NCBI RefSeq assembly: GCF_000337915.1
Contig: NZ_AOJE01000021.1
Coordinates: forward strand, 66,980-130,979
DNA: 64,000 nt
Direction: 5' to 3'
DNA from: Halorubrum saccharovorum DSM 1137
Lineage (GTDB): Archaea > Halobacteriota > Halobacteria > Halobacteriales > Haloferacaceae
The position numbers and the translations under genes were made by a program. The notes under the pieces are model-generated. The model made no database searches and was not told where the DNA came from. It saw nothing but the letters and a program-made list of their open reading frames with translations. Numbering within the stretch: position 1 is the first letter of the stretch; each line of letters starts with the position of its first letter. This document shows, piece by piece, positions 5,350 through 52,084 of this stretch.

Positions 5350-5662
5350 TTCAAAGCCCCAGCCGCTCGGCGATACATGATCGACCGTTTCCTGATAAAC
5401 ACCGCCAAAGCCCCAGCCGCGAGGACTCGATGGGCTCGCTGCGATCCTCAGTCAGTCGCTGGCGCTCCCTCCTTGCGGTCCTTACGTCGCCCGTCTTCGT
5501 CCTCGCGACTGCCCCTTTGAGTCCCACCGCCCCGCACAGCACCGCACCTCCCACCTCCCCAGCCTCGTCAGTCGCCGTCGCTTCGCTCCGGCGACTGACT
5601 CCCTCGCGCGGCGCTCCTCGCGGCCGCCGGAGGCGGCCGCTCGCAGGCGCACGCCACCGCAT
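5350..5662 (+). repeat. Dispersed structured repeat, copy A
   Basis: Noncoding element filling the gap between tatCo and argF. It shares blocks with copies at about 31370-31690 (inverted) and 51840-51965. In order it contains: the 15-mer CAAAGCCCCAGCCGC twice (5352 and 5406), a 24-bp block starting GCGACTGCCCC (5505-5528 region) identical to copy B, and CCTCCCCAGCCTCGTC (5554-5569) identical in all three copies. Hairpin 1 is at 5567-5599 with an 11-bp perfect stem. The block GACTCCCTCGC follows (5597-5607). Hairpin 2 is at 5620-5640 with a 9-bp stem. The conserved end is CGCAGGCGCACGCCACCGC. Short open frames inside differ between copies and are not conserved, so it is unlikely to be coding. 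Confidence 0.8.
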
Positions 5663-5709
5663 GTCTGTTTATAAATAGTGTCGTCGTTCAACCGACTCCC
5701 GCTCCGCTC

Positions 5710-31344: not shown

Positions 31345-31369
31345 GACGTGAGGACCGGATGTAGTTAGT

Positions 31370-31700
31370 CGCGGTGGCGCGCACCTGCGAGCGGCCGCCC
31401 TCGGCGGCCGCGAGTCAGCGTGTGCGAGGGAGTCGGCGCGGCGCTTATAAGCGCCGCGCCGACGAGGCTGGGGAGGCGTGAGGTGCTGGCGGTCGGGGTC
31501 GGGGTGGGACTCAAAGGGGCAGTCGCGATTTCCGCGAGCGTAGCGAGCGGAAAGACGGGAGACGAAGTCTCCCGGAAGGACGAAGACGCGGGACGCAAGG
31601 ACCACAAGGAGCGAGTGAAACGAGCGACTGAGGACCGCAGCGACCGCACAGAGTCCTCGCGACCGGGGCTTTGGAGGTGTTCACCGCCGAACCAGCGCCA
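31370..31700 (-). repeat. Dispersed structured repeat, copy B (inverted)
   Basis: Reverse-oriented copy of the element at 5350-5662, between the toxin gene and a membrane protein. Reading on the minus strand it has the AAAGCCCC start, the 24-bp block identical to copy A (31503-31526), and CCTCCCCAGCCTCGTC (31461-31476). Hairpin 1 (31432-31463) is a perfect 32-bp palindrome. GACTCCCTCGC is at 31424-31434. Hairpin 2 (31391-31411) has the 9-bp arm GCGGCCGCC. It also has two extra hairpins, TTTCCGC/GCGGAAA (31529-31553) and GGGAGAC/GTCTCCC (31557-31573), absent from copy A. Confidence 0.8.
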
Positions 31701-51837: not shown

Positions 51838-51965
51838 TCCGAAGCCCCGTCCCGCACAGCGCCTCACGCCTCCCCAGCCTCGTCGAACCGGCGCGCCGCG
51901 CCGGTTCGACTCCCTCGCGCGCGCTGTTCGCGCCCGGGGGGCGCTCACAGGCGCGCGCCGCCGCA
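51838..51965 (+). repeat. Dispersed structured repeat, copy C (truncated)
   Basis: Right-hand portion of the element. CCTCCGAAGCCCC is followed directly by CCGCACAGCGCCTCACG; the middle (including the 24-bp block) is deleted. CCTCCCCAGCCTCGTC is at 51869-51884. Hairpin 1 is at 51882-51910 with arms GTCGAACCGGCGCG and CGCGCCGGTTCGAC. GACTCCCTCGC follows (51908-51918). Hairpin 2 is at 51930-51944 (GCGCCC/GGGCGC), and the conserved end CACAGGCGCGCGCCGCCGC closes it. Same orientation as copy A. Confidence 0.78.
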
Positions 51966-52084
51966 CATCGTATAGAGGTTCTGTACGGTACTCACCGCCG
52001 GCACGGAGTTCGAGAGCGTCAGAAAAATCGGGGATTGAGTTCGCGTCGCCGTCGACGGCGACCGGAGCGGATCGAGTCGGTCGC

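Follow-up and report, generated by a model that had tools for sequence, protein, structure and literature searches.

The element in the window

The window, the whole 64,000-nucleotide stretch of the Halorubrum saccharovorum DSM 1137 genome that was analysed, harbors three copies of a repeated element, A, B and C, which lie where a first-pass annotation had placed them, as borne out by inspection and by exact matches to the conserved block CCTCCCCAGCCTCGTC at 5554-5569 (+), 31461-31476 (-) and 51869-51884 (+). When up to two mismatches are allowed, this block has four matches in the window against 0.18 expected. The structured strand, referred to here as the element strand, is the opposite of the one read in that annotation, being the minus strand for copies A and C and the plus strand for copy B. 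A tRNA scan of the window found none.

Copy A (5350-5664, minus) has its 5' end at 5664, next to a TATA-like motif, TTTATAAA (5668-5675, minus), in a position common to the family. Its domain 1 (5537-5661, minus; model R1, 96.0 bits, E = 1.5e-18) contains helix P1 (5606-5654, minus), with GCGGCCGCC arms and a conserved GA/GA internal loop, the variable hairpin P2 (5567-5599, minus), whose arms GTCAGTCGCCG/CGGCGACTGAC form 11 bp, and the conserved block GACGAGGCTGGGGAGG (5554-5569, minus), located by block search. Domain 2 (5405-5522, minus) matches model R2 over 5406-5522 with 111.8 bits, and includes CTCAAAGGGG (5512-5521), the P3 arms (5499-5511 paired with 5415-5427, with inner helices between them) and GGGGCTTTGG (5405-5414), all on the minus strand. 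A second tail unit (5350-5373) forms part of the 3' tail. The copy is spanned by an open frame of 103 aa (5351-5662, minus), and in Halorubrum frames of this sort have probably been annotated as hypothetical proteins.

Copy B (31366-31700, plus) has a domain 1 at 31370-31493 (plus; model R1, 80.6 bits, E = 3.4e-15) in which P2 (31432-31463, plus) is a perfect 32-nt palindrome with a TTATAA centre, pairing over 16 bp or over 14 bp with a 4-nt loop, and in which the conserved block occupies 31461-31476 (plus). Its domain 2 (31510-31673, plus) extends from CTCAAAGGGG (31510-31519) to GGGGCTTTGG (31664-31673), matches model R2 over 31560-31673 with 66.4 bits, and carries two extra hairpins in the 5' arm of P3 (31529-31577, plus). 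Copy C (51838-51968, minus) consists of domain 1 (51852-51965, minus; model R1, 97.1 bits, E = 8.9e-19) and a tail remnant, GGGGCTTCGG (51839-51848, minus); domain 2 is otherwise gone, with neither CTCAAAGGGG nor P3 arms present. Its P1 (51917-51958, minus) has GCGCCC arms, its P2 (51882-51910, minus; GTCGAACCGGCGCG..) pairs over 14 bp, or over 13 bp if the loop has 3 nt, and its conserved block lies at 51869-51884 (minus). Folding z-scores on the element strand are -2.7, -4.8 and -2.6 for copies A, B and C, and -1.7 for the opposite strand of copy A.

Much of what the first-pass annotation had claimed for these copies stands. The P2 hairpins are paired yet different in each copy (11, 16 and 14 bp), and the second hairpin it described, which corresponds to P1, has the same arms in A and B and changed arms in C. 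Its assertion that the P2 stems always start with GTC, end with GAC and pair perfectly is correct for these three and for most copies of the family, in which the stems are not mismatched, but other copies vary or carry stem mismatches, and the P2 foot elsewhere also takes forms such as CGCGGTGAGC..GCGAACCGC and GCCCGCGGCC..GGCCGCGGC. The copies it delimited are real, but the longer second domain was missed in A (5405-5522) and in B (31510-31673).

Anatomy of the element

The element measures approximately 120-350 nt and has two domains. Domain 1 is ordered as P1, an unpaired GAGGGA, the hairpin P2 and an unpaired GAGGCTGGGGAGG, and domain 2 as CTCAAAGGGG, the long hairpin P3 and GGGGCTTTGG. 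Read along the element strand, the 5' part is often preceded by TTTATAA and runs through GCGGTGGCGCG, P1, GCGAGGGA, P2 and GAGGCTGGGGAGGYGTGAGG, and the 3' part comprises a GC-rich linker, GGGACTCAAAGGGGCAG, P3, CTGGGGCTTTGGAGGTGTTCACC and often at least one tail unit containing TTATAA. The long P1 helix contains a bulged C and a GA/GA internal loop that is conserved; its apical loops have 3 nt in 134 of 172 cases, and GNRA and UNCG tetraloops are nearly missing. AAAG/CTTT closes P3 around a GGG/GGG internal loop that is invariant, and the inner helices of P3, which again contain GA/GA pairs, surround GACGYAAGCACCGCA and GAGGAGCGCAGCGAG. The lengths of loops and inserts vary freely among copies.

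Several larger variations are superimposed on this plan. A 3' tail unit of about 58 bp (CGAGCGGCTGGGGCTTTGGAGGTGTTCACCG..TTATAAG) is found in tandem behind some copies (5350-5404 in the window, and loci L023 and L178). A separate two-hairpin module of about 50 bp (AGCGAGG..CCTCTGGCAGCCGG..CCGGCGAC, with variants) interrupts the element at several positions, in both orientations, and lies in or near it at L002, L004, L021, L029, L202 and L213. Of 128 classifiable copies, 4 carry the domain 2 interior in inverted orientation between the P3 arms (L256:7588-7702(-), L263:7503-7625(-), L116:1712-1827(-) and L142:4920-5034(+)). Together, the inverted interiors and the modules in both orientations indicate that rearrangement at the DNA level also acts on the element. 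At several loci (L025, L028, L029 and L039) an N separates a copy from a duplicate to which it is joined, and at L037, near position 1544, a sequence resembling the transposon end of a sequencing kit (AGATGTGTATAAGAGACAG) follows an N within an element copy; these are probable assembly scars at element repeats.

Distribution of the element

The first-pass annotation had proposed a genome-wide search, and a covariance model of the 5' domain (domain 1) finds 62 copies in the H. saccharovorum genome. The block CCTCCCCAGCCTCGTC occurs there 39 times exactly and 48 times with at most one mismatch, with zero matches to the reversed control. The exact 16-mer is present in 51 of 52 Halorubrum genomes, with 1-125 copies per genome among those at least 90% complete, and is rare in the rest of the order. 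By structural model, 69 of 243 genomes of the order, belonging to 20 of 78 genera, contain domain 1, with 24-64 copies in each of three genomes of genus g35, which is probably Halorussus judging from locus L106 and plasmid matches. Domain 2 ranges more widely, being present in 59 of these genera (165 of the 243 genomes), often with at least 15 matches per genome among those listed. Outside Halorubrum, genera share the same architecture with unrelated helix sequences.

Few haloarchaeal plasmid records contain the exact block (four of Halorussus and one each of Halorubrum and Halobaculum), and relatives of domain 2 are found on plasmids of other genera in 39 records. Viral contigs contain 24 exact block matches, none of which fits the element model (the best reaches 24.8 bits), and a search of phages for the element gave no match.

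Covariation and the folded strand

Selection on structure, which the first-pass annotation had proposed from three copies, is upheld by the wider family. In domain 1 (58 sequences) 94.1% of paired cells are standard pairs, a percentage favored by the fact that structures were drawn from the very sequences scored. The covariation score is 0.366, compared with 0.128 ± 0.007 for shuffled and at most 0.069 for slid controls, and 18 pairs show double changes; for domain 2 (44 sequences) the corresponding values are 0.312, 0.107 and at most 0.063, with 26 such pairs. Because the counts given in this section include related sequences, p-values are not to be read as probabilities of independent events. 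In domain 2, even short, separated helices of 2-4 bp covary. Noncanonical positions are kept as well: GA/GA is nearly fixed in P1 and in two inner helices, and in domain 2 G.A is retained in 44/44 sequences with A.G in 36/44, and a further G.A in 41/44 with A.G in 40/44, alongside A.A in 43/44 and GGG/GGG in 44/44. That mismatches are fixed in this way speaks against palindromes maintained by mutational processes alone.

Which strand folds can be read from mismatches, as a C to T change in a G-C pair yields G.T and a G to A change yields A.C, and G.T is better tolerated only on the folded strand. On the element strand G.T exceeds A.C by 89:19 for P1-P3 together, composed of 28:0 in P1 and 13:1 in P2 (isolated mismatches within stems, all mismatches scored alike) and 48:18 in P3 (ungapped arms). 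A gapped P3 count that reached into the interior gave 28:25, with no asymmetry, and the raw count from the domain 2 alignment is 27:24, and 15 of these A.C fall in a single column pair, at which a subclass of sequences appears to be out of register. In other genera the ratio is 13:5 in P1, and P2 has none of these mismatches. The flanking DNA of two species is biased in the opposite direction (C/T 139 versus A/G 203 differences), and the G.T excess is thus not a local C-to-T bias; it indicates that the element strand is the one that folds. G.T is the better mismatch in DNA too, and the asymmetry therefore does not tell RNA from single-stranded DNA. These sequence patterns indicate that a single-stranded fold of the element strand is under selection, most likely as RNA.

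Evolution at orthologous sites

In 400 kb compared between two genomes that are approximately 90% identical, there are 10 and 21 copies, with about six positions in common. At positions shared by the two species the four unpaired blocks have 0-2 differences each and the helices differ, while the identity of the 5' flank ranges from 0.35 to 0.93. In the flanks of copies shared by genomes G024 and G048, G/C transversions (489) outnumber every other type of difference, an excess to which misalignment may contribute.

At three orthologous sites examined in 30 species the element is present in 17, 12 and at least 12, the last being a lower bound as several loci at the third site have no anchor. The P2 hairpin differs in nearly every species at these sites, and the unpaired blocks hardly change. 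Some hairpin types, such as GTCGCTGGCGCCGACGGCGCCAGCGAC, recur across sites and species, suggesting exchange between copies, and partial stretches that are 92-95% identical among otherwise less similar copies fit such exchange. The hairpins in the P2 slot have been replaced repeatedly, probably by exchange with other copies. Losses occur as well, as indicated by G024, which has no copy at the third site, where its closest relative G048 and others have one, and which retains only both ends of another copy.

Genomic context and mobility

A simple gene caller relying on composition called both neighbours of 45 copies, of which 19 lie between convergent, 19 between tandem and 7 between divergent genes. 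With 8 copies co-oriented with their tandem neighbours and 11 opposed to them, there is no preference, indicating no fixed relation to neighbouring transcription. A TATA-like motif lies 11-17 nt before GCGGTGG, the element start, in approximately 110 of 173 copies. In promoters of halovirus HF2 the TATA-to-start spacing is 26 nt (PMC8707807). The motif was considered and rejected as a promoter of the full RNA, as a 26-nt spacing puts the start inside P1, at odds with a transcript that contains P1 in full.

The copy number of the element does not correlate with the count of Y1 transposases (PF01797; rho 0.03, p 0.82), and ten genomes (at least 90% complete) without PF01797 contain 9-82 copies. 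The reverse transcriptase domain RVT_1, which would be expected if the element were a retrotransposed RNA, is found in 0 of 52 Halorubrum genomes. In nine comparisons none of the marks of a MITE, terminal inverted repeats and target duplications, and no clean empty site was seen, the intergenic DNA being too diverged to reveal short duplications. Within genomes there are no recent near-identical full-length copies: the best intragenomic pair by score is 92% identical over 266 bp and the longest 84% over 364 bp.

Interpretation

The element is best explained as a dispersed, structured noncoding family that acts in folded, single-stranded form, most probably as a noncoding RNA, an explanation to which we assign a probability of roughly 0.55. 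Such an RNA would be made from the strand opposite to the one first annotated; its unpaired purine-rich blocks and noncanonical pairs would probably present a surface for binding protein or RNA, scaffolded by the helices. If a role has to be named, our guess is a scaffold RNA that binds protein, as the fixed unpaired blocks would suggest. Random orientation to tandem neighbours is expected of independent units. Of the two alternatives first put forward, a small RNA family appears the likelier. More tentatively, the family may represent an order-wide, undescribed class of large structured haloarchaeal noncoding RNA, with domain 2 as its widespread core and domain 1 as a second module, encoded by tens to more than 100 dispersed gene copies that swap helices as cassettes and keep a fixed unpaired surface. 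Several observations sit uneasily with an RNA. The spacing of the TATA-like motif implies a start inside P1, P1 has 3-nt loops and nearly lacks the GNRA and UNCG tetraloops that are common in RNA, the domain 2 interior is inverted in some copies, the gapped P3 count shows no asymmetry, and single-stranded DNA would yield equal covariation and an equal G.T excess.

The main rival is a nonautonomous mobile DNA element, in the manner of REP/RAYT or PATE/IS605, in which a transposase would recognise the hairpins in single-stranded DNA and the fold would be selected for transposition. The copies are indeed dispersed, numbering 1-125 exact matches per species, two species approximately 90% identical differ in about half of the element positions, the sites are mostly between convergent or tandem genes, like those of REPs (PMC3733652), the hairpins are strand-specific with GNA triloops, and two-hairpin modules are inserted in both orientations. 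The mobility that the first-pass annotation had offered as an alternative is weakly supported by dispersal and by loss or gain between species, but target duplication, clean empty sites, recent amplification and a link to Y1 genes were not found in the comparisons above. As the element also persists at orthologous sites with conserved blocks, the best intragenomic pair is no closer than 92%, plasmid copies are few and viral contigs have no fitting copy, we consider this explanation unlikely.

Two further proposals dispense with a folded single strand. The copies could be sites in double-stranded DNA, such as BIME-like cruciforms that absorb supercoils between convergent genes, or bidirectional terminators, for which the GC-rich palindromes, the scarcity of divergent sites (7 of 45, against 19 convergent) and, by itself, the random orientation to tandem genes would be suitable; in a cruciform, however, both strands fold and G.T and A.C should be equally frequent, which they are not, making this improbable. 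Quasipalindrome correction or template switching could alternatively keep the hairpins perfect without structural selection, in agreement with the minimal loops, the replacement of a whole hairpin at one site and the four interiors inverted between inverted arms. Correction would nevertheless erase mismatches such as GA/GA, A.A and GGG/GGG, which hardly vary; in addition, short helices of 2-4 bp that stand apart covary, the G.T excess is unexpected and unpaired blocks are conserved, so that such upkeep appears quite improbable. Finally, open frames traverse copies A and B, and one related copy lies inside a CDS annotated as "hypothetical protein" on a plasmid of halophilic archaeon DL31, but free variation in loop and insert length and covarying helices make it extremely improbable that the 103-aa frame is a protein-coding feature.

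Comparison with known systems

A limited search of the open-access literature found no description of the element. Among the closest counterparts are the REP/BIME repeats, GTAG- or CGTC-tagged and RAYT-associated, palindromes that likewise occur in many intergenic copies and combine variable stems with short tags that stay fixed (PMC3733652). They also lie mostly between convergent or tandem genes and vary between strains (PMC3733652), and the foot of P2 reads CGTC on the strand first annotated. Unlike them, the element is archaeal, about ten times longer and bipartite, has long invariant unpaired blocks and lacks a RAYT/Y1 link; REPs are short palindromes of 20-40 bp, and the element spans 120-350 nt in two domains. 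The main text of PMC3733652 names no haloarchaeon beginning with Halo.

The PATE and SMR repeats of Haloquadratum walsbyi are, like the element, transposase-free palindromic repeats of a haloarchaeon, and they are described as having no target duplications (PMC3119063). PATEs have IS605-type near-terminal palindromes and strain-specific insertions, and SMRs are approximately 80-110 bp with terminal inverted repeats; these published descriptions set the element apart from both. Homogeneous PATEs share more than 90% identity, and no full-length pair of the element exceeds 84% over 364 bp, a comparison that does not bear on heterogeneous PATEs. PATEs and SMRs, as well as the 58-bp promoter repeats of halovirus HF2, were rejected as identities, the likeness being of a general kind. 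As for the mitochondrial double or repetitive hairpin elements (DHE/RHE; PMC2800124), the two-hairpin module of about 50 bp, and not the element as a whole, appears to resemble them in layout.

With structured RNAs of the Rfam type the element shares covarying helices, conserved unpaired and noncanonical positions and confinement to one strand. Tens of dispersed copies per chromosome are unusual for structured-RNA families defined by covariance models. Unlike such families, the element has no entry: Rfam 15 gave zero relevant matches, at the gathering threshold and at E up to 1. In a halite metatranscriptome, 22 intergenic sRNAs without assigned function are conserved in Halobacteria (PMC7002113), and these could include the element. 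If the element is transcribed, few structured RNA families in an archaeal genome would match it in copy number, and its many copies would provide unusually rich covariation data for structural work; if a mobile element read as single-stranded DNA, it would be a REP-like system without the usual transposase. On either reading, the replacement of whole hairpins at fixed orthologous sites provides a testable case of structure being kept while sequence is exchanged. Dispersed structured repeats are known as a kind; what is new here is how large the element is, its division into two domains, its range across the order and the repeated replacement of hairpins at fixed sites.
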